Shown here one piece after another: positions 10,541 through 31,115 of a DNA stretch of 64,000 bases. Below the pieces are notes generated by a model, which was not told the origin of the DNA, searched no databases, and was given only the letters and a program-made list of their open reading frames with translations. Where the stretch lies: NCBI GenBank assembly GCA_024742275.1, contig JANSYS010000006.1, positions 62,001 to 126,000 on the forward strand. Reading direction: 5' to 3'. A program made the translations under genes and the position numbers. The stretch comes from Alphaproteobacteria bacterium. GTDB taxonomy: Bacteria; Pseudomonadota; Alphaproteobacteria; Thalassobaculales; Thalassobaculaceae. Position 1 is the stretch's first letter; each line of letters starts with the position of its first letter.

Positions 10541-10705
10541 CTAGCCTTTCGCAGGCGGACGCGGCAACCGGCCACGGTCGCGGCGGCAGCGTTCGGAACA
10601 GTAGCGGACCTGCTCCCAGTCGCGGGCCCATTTCCGCCGCCACGCGAAGGGGCGGCCGCAGGTAGCGCAGGTCTTGCTCGGCAGGGTCGGCTTGCGATGG
10701 GCCAT
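10541..10705 (-). CDS. DUF2256 zinc-ribbon-like small protein
   Basis: A 54-residue protein matching the DUF2256 pattern: [14 protein letters not shown] followed by [12 protein letters not shown], i.e. a CxxC...CxxxC set of four Cys that should bind one zinc ion. The start is the ATG at 10705; the longer open frame upstream is a shadow of the photolyase-like gene. It lies 11 bases after that gene's stop on the same strand. DUF2256 genes are, from memory, commonly found beside cryptochrome/photolyase genes, as here. Function is unknown; a small nucleic-acid- or partner-binding role is a guess. Confidence 0.85.
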
Positions 10706-10716
10706 CCGCAGCGGAC

Positions 10717-12246
10717 TCACACGTCCAGGCTCGCCTGGCGCCGGTCGGGCGGGGATCTGCGGCGCCGCGACGTGGTTGGCGACAACCCGCTCTTCCGGCT
10801 GCCGTGGCGATCCTGGATCGCATCGGCGGCGGCCCTGTAGGCGTCGCCGCGTCGAACCGACCAGATCCGCTCCCGCGCTCTGCGGGCCGCTGTCACCGGA
10901 TCGACCACGGGCTCCGGGTAGGACAGGGCGAGATCCTTGCGCTCCAGCGGCGAGAGTCTCCAGGGCTCGTGGATCAGGGGCGTGGGGATCGCGGCGAGTT
11001 CCGGCACCCATCGACGCACGAAAGTCCCGTCGGGATCGTGGTCGTGGCCTTGCTTGATCGGATTGTAGATGCGAGCCGTGTTGATGCCGGTCGAACCGGA
11101 CTGCATCTGCACTTGGCTCCAATGGATGCCGGGCTCGAAATCGGTGAATTGCCTTGCCAGATGCAGACCCGGTTCGCGCCAGTGGTTCCAGAGATGGTAG
11201 CTCGAGACGCTCACCAGCATCGCCCGCATGCGGAAATTCAGCCAACCGGTGGCCGACAGTGCCCGCATGCAGGCATCGACAAACGGCAACCCGGTGCGCC
11301 CCTCCGCCCAGGCGGTGTACCGCTCCGGATCGAATTCGCGCAGCCCCGCATAGGCCGGGTGCAGGTCCCGGTGTTCGATCTCCGGTTCGCTTTCGAGTTT
11401 CTGGATGAAGTGGCAATGCCAGTGCAGCCGCCCGACGAACGACCTCAGGGCGCCTTGCCAAAGTCCGGTCTCCTCGCGGGGCAGCCCTCGCAGGCTTGCC
11501 ATCCGGCCCCATGTGGCCTGCGTCGCCTCCCGCATGGAAAGCGTTCCCCAGGCGAGATGCGGGCTGATCCGCGAGCATGCGTCCTCCGCCGTCAACGGAC
11601 TGGACATGGCGCGCTGGTATGTCTCGCCGCGATGGCGCAGGAAACCGTCGAGCGTGTCCGCTGCGGCGCGGCTGCCGCCGGGTTGCCGGTACGCGCATCC
11701 ATCTTCGGCAAGTCCGAGTTCGTCGGCCGTCGGAATTGGGCCCGGATCCAGGTCGGGAACCGGGACAAGCCGGCGCGGCGGCGGCGTTACAGGCTCCTCC
11801 ATGAAGCGGTCCCAACGCCGCGCCCATCCGTCGCGGTTCCGAAGAGGACGGATGACCCCGTGCTGGGGAAATTCGGTCCAGCGGATCCCGCTCCCGCGCG
11901 CCCAGGCCGCGACCACCTTGTCACGGGCGAAGGTCCAAGCCCCGCCTGTCTCCTCGTGGCTCCAGATGGCCGAGACGGTGTAGCGCGCGTTGATGTCGGC
12001 CAACACATCCGTCACCGCGCCGGTGCGGACAACCAGCGGCGCGCCGCTTTCCGACAGATTCCGTCTGAGTTCGACGAGGGACTCGGCAATGAACGCCCAG
12101 TGGCGGTGGCCCAAGTCGGGCTCGGCCCACAAACCGGGCTCCACGATGTAGAGAGGCAAGACCGGTCGCCCGCTCGCTGCGGCTGCCGACAGCGGGCGGT
12201 GGTCGGTCACCCGCAGATCCCGTTTGAACCAGACGATCTCGATCAT
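10717..12246 (-). CDS. Photolyase/cryptochrome-like FAD protein (DUF2256-associated subgroup)
   Basis: A 509-residue flavoprotein of the photolyase/cryptochrome superfamily. The N-terminal Rossmann antenna domain starts [13 protein letters not shown] (residues 4-16). The C-terminal FAD domain shows [30 protein letters not shown] and RIYNPIKQG. In ordinary CPD photolyases the stretch before the last motif is close to ANNAASWQW; here it is [15 protein letters not shown], so FAD-site and electron-transfer residues differ and the substrate may not be a CPD. The tail after residue 470 is Arg/Ser-rich. It follows pdxJ by 42 bases and precedes the DUF2256 gene by 11. Either a specialised photolyase (for instance on single-stranded DNA) or a blue-light sensor is possible. 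Confidence 0.85.
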
Positions 12247-20539: not shown

Positions 20540-20565
20540 TGATCCGGTTGGATCGGCGTGACGTA
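20540..20565 (+). promoter_or_regulatory. ECF11/RpoE-ChrR-type promoter, TGATCC-N16-CGTA
   Basis: TGATCC at 20540-20545, then exactly 16 bases, then CGTA at 20562-20565, followed by TAGCTA. The start codon of the DUF6134 gene lies 44 bases further on. As I recall, Rhodobacter RpoE (ECF11) uses TGATCC with a downstream CGTA/TA element. The same element with the same spacing precedes the amine-oxidase gene and the CPD photolyase gene, and overlaps the DUF3833 start. Those are the only exact copies I found in 64 kb on both strands. Confidence 0.75.
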
Positions 20566-20609
20566 TAGCTATCTACTCAAAAACCAAGATACCAGAGGCA
20601 TCCGTATCG

Positions 20610-21374
20610 ATGACCGGCATCGCTTCCCGTAGAGTCTCCCGGCGAGCCGTCTTGGGCGGCCTTGCCGCGGCGGGGGCCGCAACGCTGCTGCCGTCAGGCA
20701 GTGCAGGGGCTGCGCCGGGCCTGGCATCGGCTTATCCCGAAATCCTCAAATTCCGGGTCGAGCGCGACGGTGGTTTCATCGGTCATGTGATGCAGCGCTA
20801 TCGCCAGCTGCGGGACGACCTGCAAGTCGACGTCTTTATCGGGTTTTCCGTCTCGTTCGCTTTCATTCCCGTCTATCGGTACGAACACCGGGCGCGCGAA
20901 ATCTGGCGCGATGGGCGCTTAAGCAGGTTAGACACGGTGACCAACGACAATGGCGAGAGTGAGCAGGTGCGCGGCATGGCGGGAGTGTCGGGTTTCGCGG
21001 TCGACGGCCCGAAAGGAGCGCTGATTGCGCCCGCCGATATCCTACCGTCCAGCTATTGGCACCCGCGCTTCATCGAGTCGACGCGGATGTTGGACAGCCA
21101 GAAGGGCCGCATCCTGGACTTCGAGATCGTCAAGGTCGGGACCGAGAAAATCGCCGCGTTGGGGCAAACGGTGGATGCCGACCGCTTCGCAATGCGCGGC
21201 GATATCGATCTGGACTTCTGGTACGACGCTGACCGCGTCTGGCAGAAGATGGCCTTCACGATCAAGGGCGGGTACATGGAATACACCCGCGTTCCGCCAG
21301 GTCCGGAGGACAGCGGCTTATTTTTGTCGCCCCTATCGACCGGCCTCGCGCTGCCGCCGCCGGGAACGGCGTGA
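20610..21374 (+). CDS. DUF6134-like exported protein with Tat-type signal
   Basis: A 254-residue protein. The N terminus has twin arginines (SRRVSRRAVLGGLAAAG) and an Ala-rich hydrophobic stretch ending near GSAGAAPG at about residue 35, so export by the Tat route is likely. The mature part is a beta-rich domain of the DUF6134 type (YEHRAREIWRDGRLSRLDTV in the middle), whose function is unknown. It is the first gene behind the upstream TGATCC-N16-CGTA promoter, and the photolyase gene follows 12 bases after its stop. Placement suggests a periplasmic part in the light/singlet-oxygen response. Confidence 0.82.
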   Translation: MTGIASRRVSRRAVLGGLAAAGAATLLPSGSAGAAPGLASAYPEILKFRVERDGGFIGHVMQRYRQLRDDLQVDVFIGFSVSFAFIPVYRYEHRAREIWRDGRLSRLDTVTNDNGESEQVRGMAGVSGFAVDGPKGALIAPADILPSSYWHPRFIESTRMLDSQKGRILDFEIVKVGTEKIAALGQTVDADRFAMRGDIDLDFWYDADRVWQKMAFTIKGGYMEYTRVPPGPEDSGLFLSPLSTGLALPPPGTA

Positions 21375-21386
21375 GGACAGCACCGC

Positions 21387-22910
21387 GTGACGGTTCTGCG
21401 CTTCGTTCTCGGCGACCAGCTCGACCGGAAGATCTCCAGCCTGAAAGACATCGATCCGGATGCCGACGTTGTTCTGATGGCGGAGGTGGCCGACGAGGCC
21501 ACCTATGTGCCGCACCATCCGAAGAAGATCGCGCTGATCCTGTCGGCCATGCGGCACTTCGCGGCCGAGCTGGAAAGAGAGGGCGTCCGGGTCCACTACG
21601 TCCGCCTGGACGATGGCGCCAATACCGGCAGCTTCACCGGCGAGCTGAAGCGGGCGATCGAACGGCTCGAGCCGGACCGCGTCGTCGTTACCGAACCCGG
21701 CGAATGGCGGGTCGAACAGGATATGAAGGCGTGGGAGAAGGCGCTCGGCGTACCGGTTGAGATCCGCGCCGACGACCGCTTCCTCTGCTCGCGCGAGGAA
21801 TTCCGGGACTGGGCCGACGGCCGCAAACAACTGCGGATGGAACACTTCTACCGCGAAATGCGAAAACGGACCGGAATCCTGATGGACGGCGATAAGCCGG
21901 TCGGCGGTGATTGGAACTACGACGAGCAGAACCGAAAAGCGTTGCCCAAGCGCATTGCGACGCCGGACTTCGATGGGGCCGATCCGGACGACGTCACCGC
22001 CGAGGTGCTCGCGCTCGTCGCCGACCGTTTCGCAGGCAATTTCGGCGATCTCGAGGGTTTCCGCTTCCCGGTCACCCGCCAGGACGCCCTTCAGTTGCTC
22101 GACAGGTTCATTGAGCGGGGGCTGGGCAGGTTCGGCGATTACCAGGACGCCATGGCGGTCGGCGAGCCCTTCCTGTTCCACTCCCTGGTATCGCCGGCCC
22201 TGAACATCGGCCTTCTGCGGCCGCGCGAGGTGCTGGAGCGGATCGAGGCCGCCTACCACGACAAGGGTGCGCCCCTCAATGCGGTGGAGGGCTTCATTCG
22301 GCAGATCCTCGGGTGGCGGGAATACGTGCGCGGGATCTATTGGCTGCGCATGCCCGAATATGCCGACACAAACGCCTTGGGAGCGGACCGTCCGTTGCCG
22401 GACTTCTTCTGGACCGCGGAAACCGACATGCGCTGTCTCGCCGAAGTCATCGACCAGACCCGACGGGAAGCCTACGCCCACCATATCCAGCGCCTGATGG
22501 TGACCGGCTGCTTCGCGCTGCTGATCGGCGCCGATCCGGACGACGTGAACGAGTGGTATCTCGCGGTCTACGCGGATGCCTTCGAATGGGTCCAACTCCC
22601 GAACACGCACGGCATGGTGCTGCACGCAGATGGTGGCTATCTCGGGTCCAAGCCCTATGCGGCGTCGGGCAAGTATATCGACCGGATGTCGGACTATTGC
22701 AGCGGTTGCCGCTACGATGTGAAGGACACAGAAGGGGACAATGCCTGTCCCTTCAATTCGTTATATTGGCATTTCCTTGACCGGCACGCGGAGCGGCTGC
22801 GCGGCAACCGGCGCATGGCGATGATCTACAAGACGTGGGAGCGGTTCGACGAGGAGCGCCGAGCGGCGATCCTGAAGCGCGCTGAACACGTCCTGGAAAC
22901 CCTGACCTGA
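21387..22910 (+). CDS. Fe-S bacterial (6-4) photolyase (PhrB/CryB type)
   Basis: A 507-residue cryptochrome/photolyase-family protein of the Fe-S bacterial class, which repairs (6-4) photoproducts in DNA using blue light, FAD, a ribolumazine antenna and a [4Fe-4S] cluster. The N terminus LRFVLGDQLD is typical of the class. Four Cys occur at residues 350, 438, 441 and 454 (the last three in YCSGC and ACPFN), the exact numbering I recall for the cluster Cys of Agrobacterium PhrB. The start is GTG at 21387. It is the second gene of the ECF11-type operon and is followed 12 bases later by an SDR gene. Confidence 0.94.
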   Translation: MTVLRFVLGDQLDRKISSLKDIDPDADVVLMAEVADEATYVPHHPKKIALILSAMRHFAAELEREGVRVHYVRLDDGANTGSFTGELKRAIERLEPDRVVVTEPGEWRVEQDMKAWEKALGVPVEIRADDRFLCSREEFRDWADGRKQLRMEHFYREMRKRTGILMDGDKPVGGDWNYDEQNRKALPKRIATPDFDGADPDDVTAEVLALVADRFAGNFGDLEGFRFPVTRQDALQLLDRFIERGLGRFGDYQDAMAVGEPFLFHSLVSPALNIGLLRPREVLERIEAAYHDKGAPLNAVEGFIRQILGWREYVRGIYWLRMPEYADTNALGADRPLPDFFWTAETDMRCLAEVIDQTRREAYAHHIQRLMVTGCFALLIGADPDDVNEWYLAVYADAFEWVQLPNTHGMVLHADGGYLGSKPYAASGKYIDRMSDYCSGCRYDVKDTEGDNACPFNSLYWHFLDRHAERLRGNRRMAMIYKTWERFDEERRAAILKRAEHVLETLT

Positions 22911-22922
22911 GAGGCTGCGGCG

Positions 22923-23690
22923 ATGAGCGAACGGATAGTCTGGATCACCGGCGCCAGTTCCGGTATCGGCCGGGCGGTCGCCTTGGAGATGGCGCGTGAG
23001 GGCTGGAGGGTCGTCGTCTCCGCCCGGCGTCCGGAAGAACTCGACAGTCTCGCCGAGGAGGGACCCCCGGGCCGCATCACCGGCATTCCGGTGGACGTGA
23101 CCGATCCGGATGCGACCGTGGCGGCGGTAGAGCGGATCGAGGCGGAGATCGGACCGATCGATTGCGCTGTGCTGGCCGCCGGGACCCACATCCCCACTTC
23201 GGCCGGCGACTTCAAGACGGAGGACTTCCGAAAGCTCATCGAGGTCAACGTCATGGGGGTCGTCCACGCGACCGCCGCCGTTCTTCCCGGGTTCAAGGAA
23301 CGCCGGTCGGGTCATCTGGTCGTCGTCGCCAGCATCGCCGGCTATCGCGGCCTGCCGACGGCCGCCGGGTACGGGGCGACCAAGGCGGCGCTGATCAACT
23401 ATACCGAGGCGCTGAAATTCGATCTCGACGATTGGGGGGTTAAAACCCAACTCGTTTGTCCCGGTTTCGTGCGGACACCGTTGACCGACAAGAATCCGTT
23501 TCCCATGCCGTTTCTCATGGAAGTGGACGACGCAGCTCGGGCGATGGTGCGGGGGATGCGGGGCAACGGCTTCGAGATCACGTTTCCGAAGCGTTTCACG
23601 ATGCTGGTCCGGCTGGTATCGCGCTTACCCTACGCCCTGTACTTTCCGCTTGTGCGGAAGGGCACGAAGACCGGGGAGAACGCGGGGTGA
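22923..23690 (+). CDS. Short-chain dehydrogenase/reductase
   Basis: A 255-residue cytosolic NAD(P)-dependent oxidoreductase. The cofactor site WITGASSGIGRAVALEMA starts at residue 6, with an Arg following the second strand (SARRPEEL) that favours NADPH. The catalytic Ser-Tyr-Lys set is visible in ASIAGYRGLPTAAGYGATKA, and the C-terminal CPGFVRTPLT is standard. It has a C-terminal hydrophobic stretch (LVSRLPYALYFPLV). An SDR gene is part of the RpoE-ChrR target operon RSP1087-1091 of Rhodobacter sphaeroides as I recall it. The stop overlaps the GTG start of the next gene (GTGA). Confidence 0.93.
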   Translation: MSERIVWITGASSGIGRAVALEMAREGWRVVVSARRPEELDSLAEEGPPGRITGIPVDVTDPDATVAAVERIEAEIGPIDCAVLAAGTHIPTSAGDFKTEDFRKLIEVNVMGVVHATAAVLPGFKERRSGHLVVVASIAGYRGLPTAAGYGATKAALINYTEALKFDLDDWGVKTQLVCPGFVRTPLTDKNPFPMPFLMEVDDAARAMVRGMRGNGFEITFPKRFTMLVRLVSRLPYALYFPLVRKGTKTGENAG

Positions 23691-24112
23691 CGGATTTGCG
23701 TATGGCGTTGGACGCATACATCGACGTCTTCGAGGCGATCTCTCCGGATCGGCTCGACGTTTTCGACACCGTCTGCGATCGCGACGTCCGCTTCGTCGAT
23801 CCGTTCAACGATGTGCGCGGCCTGGACCGCTTCAAGGACGTGTTCCGCCATATGTATGCGACTCTAGAAGAGCCGCGATTCACGATCCTGGACACCGCCG
23901 TTGGCGACAATGCGGGATACATCCGCTGGCAGTTCGATTTCGTCCTGCGCGGTGAGGCGGTACGAATCGGCGGAATGTCCGAGGTGTTGTTCGGCGCCGA
24001 CGGCGTTGTCAAAGAGCATATCGACCACTGGGATTCCAGCATCCAAGTCTATGGCCGCATCCCAATTCTCGGCGCCGTAGTCCGTTGGGTGCGGGGGCGG
24101 CTGTCGGCTTAG
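23687..24112 (+). CDS. NTF2-like (SnoaL-fold) protein
   Basis: A 141-residue protein with the NTF2/SnoaL fold pattern: an N-terminal helix (LDAYIDVFEAISPDRLDVF), then VRFVDPFNDVRGLDRFKDVF and a beta-sheet ending EHIDHWDSS. These proteins hold small hydrophobic ligands and can be isomerases, cyclases or mere binding proteins; no activity can be named. GTG at 23687 overlaps the SDR stop (GTGA) and has GGGGAG upstream, so it is translationally coupled; ATG at 23702 is the alternative. The TAG stop lies within a 19-bp palindrome shared with the converging DUF3833 gene. Confidence 0.85.
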   Translation: MTDLRMALDAYIDVFEAISPDRLDVFDTVCDRDVRFVDPFNDVRGLDRFKDVFRHMYATLEEPRFTILDTAVGDNAGYIRWQFDFVLRGEAVRIGGMSEVLFGADGVVKEHIDHWDSSIQVYGRIPILGAVVRWVRGRLSA

Positions 24113-24123
24113 ATCCTAAGCCG
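24105..24123. terminator. Perfect 19-bp palindrome holding both convergent stop codons
   Basis: CGGCTTAG, ATC, CTAAGCCG: 8-base arms with a 3-base loop. The TAG stop of the NTF2-like gene (24110-24112) is in the left arm and the TAG stop of the DUF3833 gene on the other strand is in the right arm. Transcripts from either side would form the same hairpin at their ends. There is no T-run, so it may act as a weak bidirectional terminator or an RNA 3'-end stabiliser. Confidence 0.5.
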
Positions 24124-24688
24124 CCTCGCGCGTTCCGTTGTCGCTTTTCGCGCTGTCGGACGCCGGTTTCTGGAAAAACAGAGTCACTGTTCCCAGCTCA
24201 ATGCCGAACTTGGTGACCCGGGCGCGGTTCACGACCACGCCGCCGGGCTGCAGAAACATCCAATCGTCGAACCGGACTCGAACTTCGCGTCCCTGGATCG
24301 GGAGGTCCAGTTCGTAGGTCCACGTGAACGCTTTGCCGGCTATTCTGCCCTCGGCTGTACCGACGACGTCGTCGGCACGGCCGACGTAGCGGTCGCCGTC
24401 CACCTTCTCGATCGTCCAGACCCGGCGGTCTTTTTCACCGTCGGCGTACTGAAACCGTTCGTCGAGCGTCAGGGTGGTGCCGTCCCAGGTCCCGTCGATA
24501 TCGACGACGAACTCCCGCCGCAGATTGCCGAAGCGGTCCTCGAATATTCCCCACGCCTTGGTCTTGCCCTCGAAATACTGCTCAAGGACGAATTTCGGCT
24601 CTGTTTCCTTGAAGTCTTCGATTTCCATGGACTGACAAGCTCCCAATAGCAGGAGAACCATCAACAGATACGTAGTGCGTGCGATCAT
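24116..24688 (-). CDS. DUF3833 family lipoprotein
   Basis: A 190-residue predicted lipoprotein. The signal is MIARTTYLLMVLLLLGAC with lipid-carrying Cys18. The mature domain matches the DUF3833 pattern: LEQYFEGKTKAWGIFEDRFGN at about residues 36-56, then a lipocalin-like run of strands (RRVWTIEKVDGDRYVGRADDVVG). DUF3833 genes commonly sit with cfa, DUF1365 and amine-oxidase genes. A lipid-binding role in the envelope is likely but unproven. GGGAG lies 8 bases before the ATG, and the gene starts 21 bases after the GPH transporter stop. An ECF11-type element overlaps the start codon region. Confidence 0.9.
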   Translation of the reverse strand: MIARTTYLLMVLLLLGACQSMEIEDFKETEPKFVLEQYFEGKTKAWGIFEDRFGNLRREFVVDIDGTWDGTTLTLDERFQYADGEKDRRVWTIEKVDGDRYVGRADDVVGTAEGRIAGKAFTWTYELDLPIQGREVRVRFDDWMFLQPGGVVVNRARVTKFGIELGTVTLFFQKPASDSAKSDNGTREAA

Positions 24689-24694
24689 GGATCA
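24669..24694 (-). promoter_or_regulatory. Possible internal ECF11-type element at the DUF3833 start
   Basis: On the minus strand TGATCC (24694-24689), 16 bases, CGTA (24672-24669), an exact match in sequence and spacing to the three promoters nearby. The -35 part ends right at the DUF3833 ATG, so a transcript from here would begin about at codon 10 (an ATG) and would lack the charged signal start. Chance is a real possibility: an exact 10-base pattern is expected about 0.1 times in 64 kb on both strands. Confidence 0.25.
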
Positions 24695-24709: not shown

Positions 24710-26059
24710 TCATGTCTCTCTACGCCGGATCTCCGCGCTCAGATCTGCATGGGCCGCACGATCGAGCGGAAATCGCACCATCAGCGCGATCGCAAACGCC
24801 TTCAGCACCACGGGTAGGCCGCCATACAGCAGGGCGAGCGCCAGCAGCGCCTCTGGCGTGTTGGTGGCCGCGCCGGCGTCGAAACCGGCAACGTCCAGCA
24901 GTCCGAAACCGATCCCAACGGCCAGTGCCAAGGCCAACTTCGTTGCCATTCCCCAGAACGCGAAGTAAAGCCCGGTTCGCCGGCCGCCGCCCTTGGCCGT
25001 ATCGACATCGACCACATCGGCCTGAATGGCGCTTGGAAGCGTCAGGTCGGCTCCCAGACAGAGTCCGGTGGCGACGCAGATCGCGAGAAACAGATCGGCG
25101 TCCCCGGCACCGAGCAGCGGCACGGTGGCGAAGATTGCCGCGTTGATCGTCATGGCCGTACACCAGGTTCGATGCTTCCCAAGGCGGCGGGCGACCCAGA
25201 GCCAAAGCGGGACGCCGAGGATACCGAAAAGGAAATACACGAACAAAAGGTCACCCTGCCGCTCGGGAGCCGCCAGAACGTGCTCGACAAACAGCAGGAA
25301 CAGGGTCGCCGGAAGGCCGTTGGCGAGGCCGTTGATCAGATAGGCGACGATCAGGCGCAGGAACGGCTTGTTCTGAAGCAGGAGGCGGCGTGACTGGGAC
25401 CAGAGAATCGGATCGCGCGCCGCGGTCCGGTGATCGGGAACGGCGACCGCCGCGACTCCCACCGTGACGGGCAGCACGACCATCAGCGCCACGGCCAGGG
25501 CGGCGAGGGCGGCCCCGGGGCGCACGTCTCCGTCGATGCCGAGCATCACCGGGGTCCCGGCGGCGAGCAGAGTGCCGATCACGACGAAGCCTTCGCGGGA
25601 GCCGGCGATCCGGCTGCGCTCGTCGTAGTCGTCCGAGAGCTCCGCGCCCCAGGCGCCGTGGGGAAGCTGAATCATGGTCCAGCCGAGATACAGAAGAAGG
25701 CTCCAGATCAGCAGGTGCAGCACGCCGGCGTCTTCGGGCGGTCGGAAGATCATCCACACCGACAACATGAGCAGCGGGACTGCGGCGATCAGCCAGGGGC
25801 GGCGGCGCCCGAAACGGCTACGGGTGCGGTCCGACAGGGCGCCGATCACGGGATCGGTCACCACATCCCACAACCGGGCGGCCAGGAGAACGCCGCCCAC
25901 CATCGCGAGGCTCAGTCCAACCTCCTGCGAATAGAAGGTCGGCAGGAAGATGAACAGCGGAACGCCGAGCGCACCGATCGGAAGGCCCGGCAACCCGTAG
26001 GCCAGCAGTGCGGGAACCGACAGGGCCCGTCCGGTCGGGCCGGAACCGCCCTCAGCCAC
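24710..26059 (-). CDS. MFS transporter, GPH (glycoside:cation symporter) family
   Basis: A 449-residue inner-membrane carrier with about twelve helices. The family marks are in the first half: LAARLWDVVTDPVIGALSDR (about residues 60-80, the GPH motif with the conserved Asp) and RSRFGRRRPW. The start is taken as GTG at 26059, whose GTGGCTGA overlaps the stop of the cfa-like gene by 8 bases; the frame stays open further upstream but only inside cfa. A GPH member is also in the Rhodobacter RpoE-ChrR operon as I recall (RSP1089). The substrate is unknown; a lipid-related or osmolyte cargo would fit the neighbours better than a sugar. Confidence 0.9.
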   Translation of the reverse strand: MAEGGSGPTGRALSVPALLAYGLPGLPIGALGVPLFIFLPTFYSQEVGLSLAMVGGVLLAARLWDVVTDPVIGALSDRTRSRFGRRRPWLIAAVPLLMLSVWMIFRPPEDAGVLHLLIWSLLLYLGWTMIQLPHGAWGAELSDDYDERSRIAGSREGFVVIGTLLAAGTPVMLGIDGDVRPGAALAALAVALMVVLPVTVGVAAVAVPDHRTAARDPILWSQSRRLLLQNKPFLRLIVAYLINGLANGLPATLFLLFVEHVLAAPERQGDLLFVYFLFGILGVPLWLWVARRLGKHRTWCTAMTINAAIFATVPLLGAGDADLFLAICVATGLCLGADLTLPSAIQADVVDVDTAKGGGRRTGLYFAFWGMATKLALALAVGIGFGLLDVAGFDAGAATNTPEALLALALLYGGLPVVLKAFAIALMVRFPLDRAAHADLSAEIRRRET

Positions 26060-27275
26060 GTTGGAAGGCGAACTGCCGCACGTCGATGTTCTCCGACCGG
26101 AAACCACCCTCGCAATAGGCAAGGTAGTAGAGCCACATGCGCTTGAAGCGCTCGTCGAACCCGAGCTCGGCGATCTCCGGCCAGGATGCCAGGAACCTTT
26201 CCCGCCACTCCGCCAGGGTCCGTGCGTAGTCGAGGCCGAACCCGTGCTCGTCGCGAGACATCAACCCTGCCCTGGAAGCATGATCGAGAACGTGCTCGCG
26301 GGTCGGCAGCATACCGCCAGGGAAGATATACCGCTGAATGAAGTCCGGATTCCGCCGATAGTCCTCGAAGGAATCCTGATCGATGGTGATGATCTGCAGC
26401 GCCGCGCGGCCCCCTGCCTTCAGCCTTTCGGCCACGGTCGAGAAGAACGCCGGCCAGTACTGTTCGCCCACCGCTTCGAACATCTCGATCGAGGCGACGG
26501 CATCGTAGCTGCCGGCGACGTCCCTGTAGTCCCGAAGTTCGAACGTCGCCCGATCGGCGAGACCGGCTTTCGCCGCCCGTTCCCGAGCGTAGGCCAGTTG
26601 CTCGCGCGAGAGCGTAATGCCGTGGACATGGGCGCCGTAGTCCCGCGCGGCGACTTCGGCGAAGCCGCCCCAGCCGCAGCCGATCTCCAACACCCGATGC
26701 CCCGGCTCCAGCGCGAGTTCACGCGCGAGACGGTGGTACTTCGCGTGCTGCGCCGCCTCCAGGTCCTGCTGGCTGCCATCGAACAACGCCGACGAATAGG
26801 TCATGCTCGGATCAAGCCACCGTTCATAGAACGCGTTGCCGAGATCGTAGTGGTAGCTGATGTTGCGCCGCGACCCGCTCTTGGAGTTGCGGTTGAGCAG
26901 GTGGAAGACCCGTCGCGCCAGCTTGGCAAGCGGATGGGCACGGGTATGGTGCTCGATCGCCGCTTTGTTCCGGCAGAACAGCTCGACCAGCGCCGTAAGG
27001 TCAGGGCTTTCGGCCTCGTCCTCGATGAACGCCTCGGCGAAACCGAGATCGCCGCCGGTCATGAAACGCTTCACCACGCCGCTGGTTTTCAGGCGCACCG
27101 TGGCGGCCGGGCCGGGCTCCCGGCCCTCGAAGGTTATCTGACGTCCATCCGGGAGCTGGACCGTCAGCCGGCCCACGGCCAGCCGGGTCAGCAGTTTCAT
27201 CCCGCGTCGGGTCCAGGCGTCGAGCCCGCGCAGGTCGAAGCCGGCAAGCGGCGAGGAATAGGTGGTGTCGGACAT
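26052..27275 (-). CDS. Cyclopropane-fatty-acyl-phospholipid synthase-like SAM methyltransferase (CfaA/UfaM type)
   Basis: A 407-residue enzyme that transfers a methylene or methyl group from S-adenosylmethionine to a double bond of a membrane phospholipid acyl chain. The N-terminal lipid-binding region (residues 1-110) precedes YHYDLGNAFYERWLDPSMTY and the SAM site VLEIGCGWGGFAEVAARDYG. The C-terminal YLAYCEGGF is standard. ATG at 27275 with GGGAG upstream is preferred; a TTG at 27317 adds 14 residues. In R. sphaeroides a homologue (UfaM/CfaA) makes a methylated acyl chain on the way to furan fatty acids and belongs to the singlet-oxygen response, by my recollection. Here it lies third in the leftward ECF11-type operon. 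Confidence 0.93.
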   Translation of the reverse strand: MSDTTYSSPLAGFDLRGLDAWTRRGMKLLTRLAVGRLTVQLPDGRQITFEGREPGPAATVRLKTSGVVKRFMTGGDLGFAEAFIEDEAESPDLTALVELFCRNKAAIEHHTRAHPLAKLARRVFHLLNRNSKSGSRRNISYHYDLGNAFYERWLDPSMTYSSALFDGSQQDLEAAQHAKYHRLARELALEPGHRVLEIGCGWGGFAEVAARDYGAHVHGITLSREQLAYARERAAKAGLADRATFELRDYRDVAGSYDAVASIEMFEAVGEQYWPAFFSTVAERLKAGGRAALQIITIDQDSFEDYRRNPDFIQRYIFPGGMLPTREHVLDHASRAGLMSRDEHGFGLDYARTLAEWRERFLASWPEIAELGFDERFKRMWLYYLAYCEGGFRSENIDVRQFAFQRG

Positions 27276-27328
27276 GGGGGCGGTCTCCCTCGTGTCTGGC
27301 AGCCGATGGACGGACAACCGTTATGGCG

Positions 27329-28150
27329 TCAGGCGGCTTGGATGGGGCGTGGTGGTGTCGGCGTCCTCGAGTGGCCGCGCGTGACCGGCATGTCCGGCGG
27401 TGCGGGACGGCGATGAAAGCGGGCCTTCTTCATCCACAGCCTCAGGGCCTCCCAGTGAATTCCGACGATCACTTTAAGCGTGTTCGCGGGGTGGGTGAAC
27501 AGGGTTGCCGCCAGACGCGCATCGCTGAGCGAGCGCCGCTCGGCGGCATGGGTCGCGATCATCCGGTCGGCGCCATCGGGCCCGACGAGCCGGATCAGCA
27601 GACGCAGCGTCTCGCCGGGCTCGTCGGTGCGGAAACGGTAACCGCCGGCCAGGTCGAAGAACGGGGAGACATGGAACACCTTGTCGGCCGTCTGGACCAA
27701 CGGTTCGCCGGGGACGTGGTCGGGCGCCGCCGGGGCAAAGTAGCAATGCTGGTCGCCAAAGGTGTTCTTGACCTCGTACAGGACACCAGCGAGCGAACCG
27801 TCGGCTCGGTAGCCCCAGTAGACCGTCAACGGGTTGAAGGCGTAGCCGAGCGTGCGCGGCATGCAGAGGCACAGCACGCGTCCGCCGCCGATCTCGCTGC
27901 CCTGGTCGGCGAAGACGGTCTCGACCCACGGTTTGAGCGGTGCTCCGTCGCGCGGGCCGTGGTCGCGCTGATGGAACGAGAAGAGGTTGCGGCGGTCGAC
28001 GGAGAAGCAGCGCATGTCCCGGTCCAGATCCGCCAATTCGTCGAGGTCGATGAGGATCGAGGCCAGGCGGTAGCGGAAGCGATGCCGCTTCGGCGCGAAC
28101 CGGCAGTGCATCACTTGTCCAAGGTACAGTGCGGAGCGGCAATCGGTCAT
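27329..28150 (-). CDS. DUF1365 family protein
   Basis: A 273-residue cytosolic protein of the DUF1365 family. The pattern YLGQVMHCRFAPKRHRFRYR at the start, then DHGPRDG, RVLCLCMPRTLGYAFNPLTV (about residues 90-110) and a C-terminal region with SDARLAATLFTHPANTLKVI are all typical. The gene is almost always next to a FAD amine-oxidase gene and a cfa gene, as here (9 bases after one, 53 before the other). The biochemical role is not established; the Rhodobacter homologue RSP1090 has been connected with furan fatty acid formation as I recall. Confidence 0.92.
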   Translation of the reverse strand: MTDCRSALYLGQVMHCRFAPKRHRFRYRLASILIDLDELADLDRDMRCFSVDRRNLFSFHQRDHGPRDGAPLKPWVETVFADQGSEIGGGRVLCLCMPRTLGYAFNPLTVYWGYRADGSLAGVLYEVKNTFGDQHCYFAPAAPDHVPGEPLVQTADKVFHVSPFFDLAGGYRFRTDEPGETLRLLIRLVGPDGADRMIATHAAERRSLSDARLAATLFTHPANTLKVIVGIHWEALRLWMKKARFHRRPAPPDMPVTRGHSRTPTPPRPIQAA

Positions 28151-28159
28151 CGCATTGCC

Positions 28160-29485
28160 TCAGTCGGCTGCCTCGAGCGGTCGGGAGGGCGACGGGGCGT
28201 GGTCCTTGCCGTTGGCCGGCAGTACACTTTCCGTCCAAGGCGGCGCGCTGCCCAGAGCCTTGGCGACTGCGATGCCGGCCTTCAATCCGTCCTCGTGGAA
28301 ACCGTAGCCGCAATAGCTTCCACAGAACCAGGTCCGGTGCCGCCCCTGGATCTCCGGCAACCGCGCCTGGGCGTCGACCGCGGCGGCGTCGAGCACCGGA
28401 TGATCGTATTCGAACCGGGCGAACACGTTGTCCGGATCGGGATCGGCGAGGGGGTTCAGGCTGACGAAGAGAGGGTAGCGGCGATCGATGTTCTGGAGCC
28501 GGTTCATCCAGTACGTGACCGCGACGTCCCGGGCGCCGGTTCGACCTTCCGTGAGGTAGTTCCAGGAGGCCCAAAGCCGTTTGCGCCGAGGCATCAGCGT
28601 TGGGTCTCGGTGCAGGACGGCGACGTTCTTCTGATAGGTGAAGCAGGAGAGGATTTCCTGCTCCTGGTCATCCGGCGAGTCCAGAAGGCGAAGCGCCGTA
28701 TCCCCATGAGTCGCCACGACCACCTCATCGAATCGCTCGTTGCCATGGTCGGTGACCACGTCCACGCCGAAGCTGTCGCGGACGATGCGGCGGACCGGCG
28801 TCGACAGCCGGATGCGATCGGCGAAAGGTGCCGAGATTCTGCGCACGTATTCGCGCGATCCGCCGGTGACCGTGTACCATTGCGGGCGGGCGGCGAAGTC
28901 GAGCAGGCCGTGATTGCAGAAGAAGCGGACGAAGGACCGGGCCGGAAACGTCAGCATGGTCTCTGCCGGGCACGACCAGATGGCAGCCGCCATGGGCAGC
29001 AGGTGGTCCTCGATGAAGCCGGGACCATAGCCCTCTCGCGTCAAGTATTCGCCAAGCGTGGGCGATCCGTCATTGGCGGGAGCGTCCAGCAGGACGGGGG
29101 CAGTCCGATAGAAGCGCACCAGGTCGCGCAGCATTCTCCAGTATCGCGCGCTGACAAGGTTGCTGGCCTGGGCGGTGAAACCGCCGACCGAGCCCTCGTA
29201 CTCCAGCCGGCCGTGATCCACGGATACCGCGAACGACATGTCGCTGCGTTCCGTGGCGACGCCCAATTCGGCGAACATCGCGATCAGGTTCGGGTAGGTC
29301 CGCTCATTGTAGACGATGAAGCCCGTGTCCACCGGAAGACGCACGCCATCGTAATCGACGTCGACCGTATTGCTGTGGCCGCCGAGGCGATCCTCGGCTT
29401 CGAAAACAGTTACCTCGTTATCCCGGTTGAGAAGCCAAGCGGTGGACAGGCCCGAAATTCCGGTGCCGATGACGGCTATGCGCAT
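28160..29485 (-). CDS. FAD-dependent amine-oxidase-like protein (putative acyl-chain desaturase, UfaD-like)
   Basis: A 441-residue flavoprotein. It starts with the dinucleotide site MRIAVIGTGISGLSTAWLL and has the amine-oxidase-like RLGGHSNTVDV motif near residue 34. The C-terminal FAD motif is HRTWFCGSYCGYGFHEDGLK, ending in the usual GxxxA helix. It heads the leftward operon, 32 bases behind a TGATCC-N16-CGTA promoter, with a strong GGGAGAGAG ribosome site. The Rhodobacter counterpart (RSP1091) has been described as a desaturase needed for furan fatty acids, by my recollection; the activity here is inferred from the conserved gene order. Confidence 0.9.
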   Translation of the reverse strand: MRIAVIGTGISGLSTAWLLNRDNEVTVFEAEDRLGGHSNTVDVDYDGVRLPVDTGFIVYNERTYPNLIAMFAELGVATERSDMSFAVSVDHGRLEYEGSVGGFTAQASNLVSARYWRMLRDLVRFYRTAPVLLDAPANDGSPTLGEYLTREGYGPGFIEDHLLPMAAAIWSCPAETMLTFPARSFVRFFCNHGLLDFAARPQWYTVTGGSREYVRRISAPFADRIRLSTPVRRIVRDSFGVDVVTDHGNERFDEVVVATHGDTALRLLDSPDDQEQEILSCFTYQKNVAVLHRDPTLMPRRKRLWASWNYLTEGRTGARDVAVTYWMNRLQNIDRRYPLFVSLNPLADPDPDNVFARFEYDHPVLDAAAVDAQARLPEIQGRHRTWFCGSYCGYGFHEDGLKAGIAVAKALGSAPPWTESVLPANGKDHAPSPSRPLEAAD

Positions 29486-29516: not shown

Positions 29517-29542
29517 TACGAGGCGCCGAGGTTTGCGGATCA
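29517..29542 (-). promoter_or_regulatory. ECF11/RpoE-ChrR-type promoter of the amine-oxidase/cfa operon
   Basis: On the minus strand TGATCC (29542-29537), exactly 16 bases, then CGTA (29520-29517) followed by TCATG. It lies in the 110-base gap after the CPD photolyase gene, 31 bases before the amine-oxidase ATG, the expected leader length. It matches the elements at 20540 and 31115 in both hexamer and spacing. Confidence 0.75.
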
Positions 29543-29595: not shown

Positions 29596-31053
29596 TTACC
29601 CCTTCTTGATCGTCTCAAGCGCCTCGAGCGCCCGTTTGCGCGCGACGGCGTGATCGACGATCGGGTGCGGATAGGTCTTGCCGAGGGTTACGCCGGCTTT
29701 CCTGAGAACGTCGGGCTTGGCTTCCCAGGGCTTGTGGATGACGGAGTCCGGCAGGTCGGCGATCTCCGGCACCCATCGACGGACATAGGCGGCGTCGCCG
29801 TCGAACTTCTCGCCCTGCAGAACCGGATTGAAGATCCGGAAGTAAGGAGCGGCGTCGGCCCCGCAACCGGCTACCCACTGCCAACTCGCCGCGTTGTTCG
29901 CCAGATCCGCGTCGACCAGCGTGTCCCAGAACCAAGCCTCGCCCTCCCGCCAATGCACGAGCAAGTCCTTGATCAGGAAGGAGGCGACGATCATCCGCAC
30001 CCGGTTGTGCATCCAGCCGGTGTGCCAAAGCTCCCGCATGCCGGCATCGACGATGGGATAACCGGTGCGGCCGCGTCGCCAAGCCGCCAAGCCGTCCGGG
30101 TCCTCGCGCCAGGGGAAGTCTTCGAACTCCTGGCGAAGCGACGTTTCCGGCAGCGTCGGATTGTTGAAGAGCAGGTTGTAGGAGAATTCCCGCCAGGCGA
30201 CTTCGGACAGGAACGTGGACGTGCCCCGGTCCATGGCCTCGTTGCTCCTCGCTTCGCTTGCGGCACGGGCCGCATGCCAGATCCGGCGCGGCGAAATCTC
30301 GCCGAAATGCAGATGCGGAGACAGTCCCGATGTGCCCGCAAGTCCCGGCAGGTTTCGGTGCGCCTTGTAGTCGGCGACCGTTCCGTCGAGGAAATCCTCC
30401 AGTCGGGCAACCGCCCCCGCTTCTCCGGGCGTCCAGGCGTCCCGCAGGCCGCCGGCCCAGTCTGGCTTGGACGGCAGCAGCGACCAGTCTTCCAACGCTT
30501 CGCTCGTCGGTATCGCTTCCGGCGCCGCCAGCGCCTCCGGCGCGGGCAGCGGGTCGGCCGGATCACCTTTCGACTGTATCTCGCGCCAGAACGGCGAGAA
30601 GACCTTGAACGGCGTGTCCTGCTTGGTGGTGACCTCCCACGGTTCGTAGAGCAGGCCGCCATTGAAGCTCCGCACGTCGAGATCGCGTTTCTTCAAAGCG
30701 TCCTTGATGCGGCTGTCCCTCTCCCGCGCCCAAGGTTCATAGCGTCGGTTCCAGTAGACCGCGTCGGCGCCGCTCTCCTCGATCATCGCGTCGACGACCT
30801 CGGCAGCCTCGCCGCGGCGCAGGATCAGCGGCGTGCCGATCTTCGATAGGGCCTCGCCAAGCGCCTTCAGGGACCCGTGCAGCCACCAGCGCGACGCTCC
30901 GCCCGGTTTCCAGTCTCCCGCGTCCGCGTCGTCCAGAATGTAGAGCGCGAGCACTGGAGCCCCGCGATCCGCGGCTGCGGCGAGGGCGGGGTTGTCGAAC
31001 AGTCTCAGGTCCCGTCGAAACCAGACGAGGGTCGGCGCAGAGCTGGCGGGCAT
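29596..31053 (-). CDS. phr: Deoxyribodipyrimidine (CPD) photolyase, class I
   Basis: A 485-residue DNA repair flavoenzyme that splits cyclobutane pyrimidine dimers with blue light. Residues 6-16 (LVWFRRDLRLF) open the antenna domain. The FAD/DNA domain has SPHLHFGEISPRRIW, GRTGYPIVDAGMRELWHTGWMHNR, HWREGEAWFWDTLVDADLAN and the dimer-binding ASWQWVAG. The terminal part (KTYPHPIVDHAVARKRALEA) is normal, so the gene appears complete and active. It is alone between the EAL-like gene and the amine-oxidase operon; its own ECF11-type promoter starts on the stop codon of the upstream gene. The Rhodobacter phrA gene is likewise an RpoE target, as I recall. Confidence 0.95.
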   Translation of the reverse strand: MPASSAPTLVWFRRDLRLFDNPALAAAADRGAPVLALYILDDADAGDWKPGGASRWWLHGSLKALGEALSKIGTPLILRRGEAAEVVDAMIEESGADAVYWNRRYEPWARERDSRIKDALKKRDLDVRSFNGGLLYEPWEVTTKQDTPFKVFSPFWREIQSKGDPADPLPAPEALAAPEAIPTSEALEDWSLLPSKPDWAGGLRDAWTPGEAGAVARLEDFLDGTVADYKAHRNLPGLAGTSGLSPHLHFGEISPRRIWHAARAASEARSNEAMDRGTSTFLSEVAWREFSYNLLFNNPTLPETSLRQEFEDFPWREDPDGLAAWRRGRTGYPIVDAGMRELWHTGWMHNRVRMIVASFLIKDLLVHWREGEAWFWDTLVDADLANNAASWQWVAGCGADAAPYFRIFNPVLQGEKFDGDAAYVRRWVPEIADLPDSVIHKPWEAKPDVLRKAGVTLGKTYPHPIVDHAVARKRALEALETIKKG

Positions 31054-31089: not shown

Positions 31090-31115
31090 TACGCGCGCGA
31101 CCTGCCGGCGGATCA
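31090..31115 (-). promoter_or_regulatory. ECF11/RpoE-ChrR-type promoter of the CPD photolyase gene
   Basis: On the minus strand TGATCC (31115-31110), 16 bases, CGTA (31093-31090), 36 bases before the phr ATG. The first three bases of TGATCC are the TGA stop codon of the EAL-like gene (31115-31113), so coding end and promoter share sequence. Match and spacing are identical to the sites at 20540 and 29542. Confidence 0.72.

Follow-up and report, generated by a model that had tools for sequence, protein, structure and literature searches.

In Rhodobacter sphaeroides, furan fatty acids arise in three steps: vaccenoyl phospholipid is methylated by UfaM, the methylated chain is desaturated by UfaD (RSP1091), and UfaO (RSP1090, a DUF1365 protein) makes the furan. 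The three enzymes act successively on phospholipid chains, and the furan oxygen comes from O2 (PMC7380195). RSP1091 and RSP1090 are both needed for singlet oxygen defence and for the full activation of RpoE (PMC3818230). The sigma-E of this species drives rpoHII as well (PMC6852236). The ECF11 consensus is TGATCC-N16-CGTA (PMC5507510), and its elements are also given as TGATCC and CGTATT (PMC4336711). Here, we analyse a stretch of 64,000 nucleotides from an alphaproteobacterium of the family Thalassobaculaceae (contig JANSYS010000006.1, positions 62,001 to 126,000), hereafter the window, which carries a cassette of this kind. Very probably, this cassette is a furan fatty acid (ufa) operon under sigma-E/ChrR (ECF11) control, and its host is probably a phototroph. 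The pathway and the regulon are already known, and the window is a further instance; because the cassette was described before in the sigma-E core regulon, the idea of a furan cassette under sigma-E is not new. What we add is a candidate rule of three residues, Glu236, Ala240, and Gln266 (Escherichia coli Cfa numbering), for telling UfaM from Cfa.

The cassette is a run of five genes on the minus strand (29485-24116), in the order amine oxidase (ufaD), DUF1365 (ufaO), Cfa-like methyltransferase (ufaM), GPH carrier, and DUF3833 lipoprotein. They are separated, in order, by 9, 53, and 21 bases, except that ufaM overlaps the carrier gene. From our reading of the sequence, the ATG at 27275 is preferred over the TTG at 27317 as the start of ufaM, and the carrier start was placed at the GTG at 26059, inside the overlap with the ufaM stop. 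The genes and the promoter motifs around them are as follows:

31090 to 31115, minus strand: exact ECF11 motif before the photolyase gene, matching the consensus
29596 to 31053, minus strand: DNA photolyase gene (phr), upstream of ufaD and in the same direction; Pfam DNA_photolyase and FAD_binding_7
29517 to 29542, minus strand: exact ECF11 motif before ufaD (-35 TGATCC, -10 CGTA), with 31 bases from the motif end to the ATG
28160 to 29485, minus strand: ufaD, putative acyl desaturase of the flavin adenine dinucleotide (FAD) amine oxidase family; Pfam Amino_oxidase (1.8e-24) and NAD_binding_8
27329 to 28150, minus strand: ufaO, putative furan-forming oxygenase; Pfam DUF1365 (3.6e-78)
26052 to 27275, minus strand: ufaM, S-adenosylmethionine-dependent methyltransferase of the Cfa family; Pfam CMAS (9.4e-89)
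24710 to 26059, minus strand: GPH/MFS_2 carrier with GTG start at 26059; Pfam MFS_2 (6.4e-94)
24669 to 24694, minus strand: exact ECF11 motif over the start codon of the DUF3833 gene, matching the consensus
24116 to 24688, minus strand: DUF3833 lipoprotein; Pfam DUF3833 (1.4e-65), with the lipobox LGAC closing the signal peptide MIARTTYLLMVLLLLGAC

The sequence-only reading, made earlier without database searches, had proposed this gene set, and the Pfam matches recover all of it on the minus strand, with the same order and coordinates. The UfaM/UfaD/UfaO pathway that it named agrees with the published one (PMC7380195). It had also called for a homology search against these enzymes, which gives 44% identity for UfaD (415 aa), 35% for UfaO (249 aa), and 49% for UfaM with the orthologues of Luteovulum (Cereibacter) azotoformans. 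Over 168 residues, this species shares 94% sigma-E identity with R. sphaeroides, and its UfaD orthologue sits next to rpoE. In the whole genome of the window there is one match only to ufaO (DUF1365), and ufaM is the sole full-length CMAS match. The nearest solved relative of UfaD is the amine oxidase LkcE (approximately 5e-52), which we take to be a lankacidin enzyme and which is no fatty acid enzyme.

We then looked at the distribution of the cassette among relatives. UfaO was found in 141 of 289 genomes sampled from the class, and 60 of the 141, mainly higher-scoring ones, were picked by hand for further analysis. In 52 of these, the window's genome included, a Cfa-family gene follows UfaO immediately and in the same orientation. 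The neighbourhoods of the other 51 linked loci and of the locus of Azospirillum thermophilum were scanned with the window proteins, and UfaD is beside UfaO and UfaM in all of these 52 linked loci. The carrier was matched in 31 of them, the photolyase in 25 (upstream of ufaD), DUF3833 in 25, ChrR in 21, and RpoE in 19. These neighbour counts, and those given below for the facing operon, are lower bounds because some of the linked loci are short. Among named plasmids, UfaO has its best matches in Azospirillum, Rhizobium, and Mesorhizobium.

The predicted ufaD promoter (29542-29517) agrees with the ECF11 consensus at all 10 fixed bases, which upholds the earlier proposal of an ECF11-type promoter ahead of the cassette. 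Three further exact motifs of the window had been overlooked: 20540-20565 on the plus strand, and 24694-24669 and 31115-31090 on the minus strand. The whole genome has 14 exact motifs and none for the reversed control pattern; the 52 other linked loci (770,804 bases) have 70, against 2 for the control. These figures exceed chance, and we rejected chance as the origin of the motifs. Within the linked loci, RpoE has an exact motif at most 350 bases upstream in 16 of 19 cases; the corresponding figures are 12 of 26 for DUF6134 and 4 of 25 for DUF3833. In 80 named loci, which were picked by their regulator (a match to R. sphaeroides SigE), there are 114 exact motifs and none for the control, and these loci contain UfaO (76/80), UfaD (71/80), the carrier (60/80), and DUF3833 (56/80). 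The Rhodobacterales-like rpoE-ufaO locus L118 stands in a record titled Exiguobacterium profundum SSD5, a title that is probably wrong.

The window's own genome encodes an rpoE-chrR pair on another contig (C34), with an exact ECF11 motif in front. The best solved relative of the sigma factor is R. sphaeroides SigE (2q1z, 2.8e-47), and that of ChrR is 2z2s (1.5e-43). An rpoH-type sigma-32 gene (L022), scoring over the cut-off of NCBIfam PRK07500, also follows an exact motif. Other genes in such a position encode a response regulator, a DUF3422 protein, and a MAPEG protein (L009, L012, L020); no convincing gene start was found close behind the motif at 3 of the 14 genomic copies (L011, L013, L019), and two further copies (L018, L021) were left out of the gene assignment. 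The organism is very probably phototrophic because its genome encodes two Photo_RC proteins. Hence, the photo-oxidative control suggested in the sequence-only reading gains support from the organism's own RpoE and ChrR, the ECF11 motifs, and the reaction-centre genes.

By analogy with R. sphaeroides and Rhodopseudomonas palustris, singlet oxygen would lead to the loss of ChrR and free sigma-E, which would transcribe phr, the run ufaD-ufaO-ufaM-carrier-DUF3833, and the facing DUF6134 operon. UfaM would then convert vaccenoyl chains on membrane phospholipids to 11-methyl-12-trans-18:1, UfaD (with FAD and O2) would produce the 10,12-diene, and UfaO would add oxygen from O2 and close the furan ring, which would scavenge singlet oxygen.

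The assignment of the methyltransferase is central to this interpretation. In E. coli Cfa, bicarbonate is bound via C139, E239, H266, I268, and Y317 (PMC3132707). The window protein has S, E, Q, I, and Y at these positions and departs from the Cfa set; with two further positions, its residues read S139/E236/E239/A240/Q266/I268/Y317. Positions 236, 240, and 266 are Glu, Ala, and Gln in the UfaM type versus Gly, His, and His in Cfa. The 60 UfaO genomes contain 119 other CMAS proteins, of which we read 117, all but the fragments G078:C5 and G216:C32. Glu236, Ala240, and Gln266 are present in all 51 UfaO-linked CMAS proteins of other genomes of the class, as in the window's, with Ser (36), Ala (13), Gly (1), or Cys (1) at position 139. 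The 66 unlinked proteins divide into 54 with His266 and 12 with Gln266. All three signature residues occur in 9 of these 12: the 8 genomes that lack a linked CMAS contribute one each, and the ninth is a second copy in G157. As a control, 80 of the 148 genomes without UfaO were searched for CMAS, which gave 47 matches in 37 genomes; 30 of the 47 matches were read. None of the 30 has the full signature and one has Gln266; the residue strings CAEAHIY and CGEHQIY among them are exceptions at one or two positions.

The same residues mark loci on plasmids of beta- and gammaproteobacteria, Streptomyces, and Mesorhizobium. Nine plasmid loci were taken besides that of A. thermophilum, and a linked CMAS was readable in eight (Azoarcus, Cupriavidus, Caballeronia, Salinivibrio, Aeromonas, two Streptomyces, and Mesorhizobium), all with the three residues; in the ninth, from Photobacterium (L330), the motif filter picked up no linked CMAS. 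A second, DUF1295-linked CMAS of Caballeronia has His266. The A. thermophilum locus (L008) was left out of the residue count; its ufaM (10646-11050) is annotated as a short fragment, with similarity from 9885, and is perhaps a broken or mis-called gene. The chromosome 1 record of L. azotoformans, whose other replicons were outside the search, has a single full-length CMAS match, which is unlinked and has all three residues. We made a quick tree of 118 rows, from which the five bicarbonate columns were removed (236 and 240 were kept) and the short Gln266 second copies of G033 and G123 were left out by length. The Gln/His label changes twice on this tree, against a mean of 39.3 after shuffling, and none of 500 shuffles was as low. 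In BLASTP, the window UfaM scores 298-465 bits with signature proteins, at most 247 with the His266 proteins of the set, and 222 with the E. coli Cfa segment. Judged by its sequence, the window methyltransferase is of the UfaM type and not of the Cfa type.

These residues suggest how the reaction might differ. In our interpretation, UfaM has lost the bicarbonate-holding His266 and gained Glu236, which would act as the base; because of this loss and gain, the proton would leave the neighbouring chain carbon and not the new methyl. A multi-term literature search, which could miss some papers, found none joining UfaM or furan fatty acids with bicarbonate. For UfaO, the masses reported for the fatty acid methyl esters (308.2 for the diene and 322.2 for the furan; PMC7380195) fit, by our calculation, C20H36O2 + O2 = C20H34O3 + H2O. 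Since diene plus O2 equals furan plus water, we infer that UfaO would need no reductant, and none was added in its assay (PMC7380195). In one synthetic route to furans, singlet oxygen adds to 1,3-dienes and the endoperoxide is then dehydrated (PMC10777415). Given the reductant-free balance and this route, UfaO may form and then dehydrate an endoperoxide. Twelve residues are identical in all 135 aligned UfaO sequences (230-340 aa): H15, R17, D63, F105, P107, N129, T130, K157, S162, P163, F164, and Y171. A heme or 2-His-1-carboxylate site was considered and rejected, and we claim no metal site, because H15 is the only invariant His; H135 is present in 132 of 135 and is replaced by Tyr in Azoarcus and by Arg in Caballeronia. 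The predicted model of UfaO (predicted local distance difference test [pLDDT] 88.3) is barrel-like. The top nine Foldseek matches are all nitrobindin (E 2.3e-4 to 1.0e-3), yet the VIA Z scores are middling (at most 7.4).

Next to the cassette, and convergent with it, lies an operon on the plus strand (20540-24112):

20540 to 20565, plus strand: exact ECF11 motif of the operon, matching the consensus
20610 to 21374, plus strand: DUF6134 protein (Pfam), opening the operon
21387 to 22910, plus strand: DPRP photolyase-related protein (Pfam), presumably of the Fe-S 6-4 photolyase-like subtype
22923 to 23690, plus strand: SDR oxidoreductase (Pfam)
23687 to 24112, plus strand: SnoaL_2/NTF2-like protein (Pfam), convergent with the DUF3833 gene

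SDR, SnoaL, and DUF6134 genes recur near the 52 linked ufa loci (39, 26, and 26, respectively), and DPRP is rare (6). In the ufa clusters of Azoarcus, Aeromonas, and Caballeronia (L322, L327, L326), genes annotated as chalcone isomerase family or lipocalin hint at further small lipid binders near the pathway.

The two last genes of the cassette had been left without an assigned role in the sequence-only reading, which suggested that they could move or hold the modified lipid. The best solved relatives of the carrier are the MFSD2A lysolipid symporters (2.1e-33), followed by MelB (2e-12). In 24 genomes besides the window's, we found 22 linked carriers, of which 21 were read, together with 8 of 14 unlinked ones. 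The MFSD2A score exceeds the MelB score in all 21 linked carriers and the window's, and in 2 of the 8 unlinked ones. The window carrier has an MFS_2 domain and keeps both Asp residues equivalent to MelB D55 and D59, which we take to be the cation site. In the alignment, it has none of MelB K18, D19, D124, W128, and R149, presumably the sugar-site residues; this loss is not specific because unlinked GPH carriers also are without most of them. The DUF3833 protein is predicted to form a ten-strand up-and-down calycin barrel (pLDDT 87.4). Its model gives VIA Z scores of 13.0-15.8 over 128-161 residues in the best 17 matches, with a designed barrel at 15.8, BFA1 at 15.4, OssO at 14.4, nitrobindin at about 14, and fatty-acid-binding proteins at about 9.9. 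No lipobox was seen in 27 DUF3833 N-termini of named Rhodobacterales loci (L058 to L133; L075 is incomplete and lacks the N-terminus), and lipidation is thus no constant feature of these proteins. The -35 of the motif at 24669-24694 abuts the DUF3833 ATG and its -10 lies within the signal-peptide codons, a position also found in a genome of the same family (G107, L180); if this motif were used, the transcript would be without the start of the signal peptide.

Could the cassette make cyclopropane acids, possibly further modified, against oxidative stress, with the methyltransferase as an ordinary cyclopropane synthase? The best NCBIfam matches are indeed Cfa models, and as the sole full-length CMAS protein of the genome it could be the only Cfa. 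Moreover, cotton enzymes described as cyclopropane synthases, of eukaryotic origin, have H266 replaced, mostly by Gln (printed Q737, I729, and Q734), and Ser for C139 in two of three (PMC3132707). Gln266 thus marks a lineage and is no proof of product. However, the window protein fails to reach the cut-off of any of the three Cfa models (299 vs 600, 288 vs 400, and 249 vs 650), and the L. azotoformans chromosome 1 record also has a single full-length CMAS, of the UfaM type. Residues, tree, and BLASTP scores lead us to reject an ordinary Cfa, an explanation that we regard as highly improbable; this alternative, acknowledged in the sequence-only reading, is disfavoured. Like the cotton enzymes, several other observations weigh against the reading as a furan fatty acid operon. 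UfaO is only 35% identical to the characterised clade, and only 28 of the 52 linked loci have an exact motif no more than 350 bases ahead of their UfaD or photolyase match. The deep Gln/His split is not a starred branch of the tree, and 58 of its 115 inner branches are weak. When Halomonas UfaM was expressed in E. coli, cyclic acids were found besides 11-methyloctadec-12-enoate (PMC12089945); this host has its own cfa. Finally, the authors of the UfaO assay suppose that the wheat-germ extract supplied a reductant (PMC7380195).

The explanations of the carrier and DUF3833 pair are more evenly disputed. They may form a lipid-handling pair, in which lysolipid, or acyl lipid that has been damaged, would cross the inner membrane through an MFSD2A-like symporter and be bound by a periplasmic calycin. 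The ranking of MFSD2A ahead of MelB, its prevalence in linked carriers, the retained cation-site Asp next to the absent sugar residues, and the predicted barrel all point in this direction. Against it, MFSD2A does not fall inside the linked carriers on the carrier tree; branches are long, and midpoint rooting leaves it on the same side as MelB, so the tree gives no support to MFSD2A as a close clade. Also, of the 60 carriers in the named Rhodobacterales loci, 7 were read (two as partial sequences) and score 0-24 bits with either reference, the loss of sugar residues extends to unlinked carriers, and the Rhodobacterales DUF3833 proteins show no lipobox. In R. sphaeroides, transcripts of RSP1089 (the carrier), RSP1088, and RSP1087 (the SDR) are raised after singlet oxygen stress (PMC7074977), but in-frame deletion of any of the three left the fatty acid profile unchanged (PMC7380195), for which reason the moving or holding of lipid stays a suggestion. 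In this specific form, the pair is possible but rather unlikely, and a broader part of both proteins in lipid handling is plausible from their sequences and the predicted model. Alternatively, the two may share only a stress regulon and have no role in lipids, the carrier as a sugar/cation symporter and DUF3833 as an envelope protein. The annotation of RSP1089 is GPH sugar/cation symporter, the deletions were without effect on acyl chains, and the carrier and DUF3833 matches are missing from 21 and 27 of the 52 linked loci (some of them short). Yet, where present, the two genes mostly stand directly behind ufaM, and the ufa genes of Azoarcus, Salinivibrio, and Aeromonas are accompanied by DUF3833, although the last two have no annotated carrier next to them. 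We consider this a real possibility, if short of probable. The most comprehensive proposal is a complete system that makes and handles furan lipids, and we hold it to be distinctly unlikely as a whole. UfaM would be an old, recognisable lineage in which His266 to Gln and His240 to Ala dismantle the Cfa bicarbonate base, and Glu236, beside the conserved Glu239, steers the proton to the chain. UfaO would have a calycin-like barrel fold and, needing no reductant, would add O2 across the conjugated diene and then dehydrate the resulting endoperoxide. In the periplasm, the MFSD2A-like carrier and the calycin DUF3833, the latter with its own sigma-E promoter, would transport or retain acyl lipids that bear a furan or have been photo-oxidised.

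These results have consequences for annotation. Genes annotated as cyclopropane synthase next to ufaO are probably ufaM, and likely producers of furan fatty acids should be predictable from sequence because the three-residue rule separated both kinds wherever UfaO allowed a check. The rule also names residues that may underlie cyclopropane closure versus double-bond shift in one fold. A role in lipid handling would give a testable function to genes whose deletion left acyl profiles unchanged.

The comparison with known systems shows how the parts have been arranged elsewhere. In Arabidopsis (AtUFAMD1/AtUFAO1), AT3G23510 is similar to both UfaM and UfaD, with the parts fused in one protein (PMC10940516). 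In Halomonas, where UfaM gave the methylated intermediate mentioned above, ufaM, ufaD, and ufaO are consecutive (PMC12089945). Pseudomonas syringae PSPTO_1121-1116 comprises phrB, SDR, and UfaD-, UfaO-, and Cfa-like genes, numbered consecutively behind an ECF11-type motif; the SDR is inside the phrB cluster, and an RSP1088-like lipoprotein gene lies elsewhere without a motif (PMC5507510). In R. sphaeroides, RSP1091-1087 and RSP2144/2143 bring UfaD, UfaO, the GPH carrier, RSP1088, the SDR, and a photolyase into one sigma-E regulon (PMC6852236, PMC7074977, PMC3818230), and its near relative L. azotoformans has a DUF3833 match at the position of RSP1088. The window differs in that ufaM is within the operon and not unlinked (RSP2144), the SDR is in the convergent operon and not at the position of RSP1087, and rpoE-chrR is on another contig. 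The ufaD-ufaO-ufaM genes of R. palustris (RPA2571-2570-2569; Lemke et al. 2020, PMC7380195), compared by their published gene numbers, encode the same enzymes in the same order as in the window. They were shown to make 9M5-FuFA, and R. palustris additionally has FufM for the dimethyl furan (PMC7380195). Beyond this trio, the window has phr, the carrier, DUF3833, and the facing DUF6134 operon, with ECF11 motifs.

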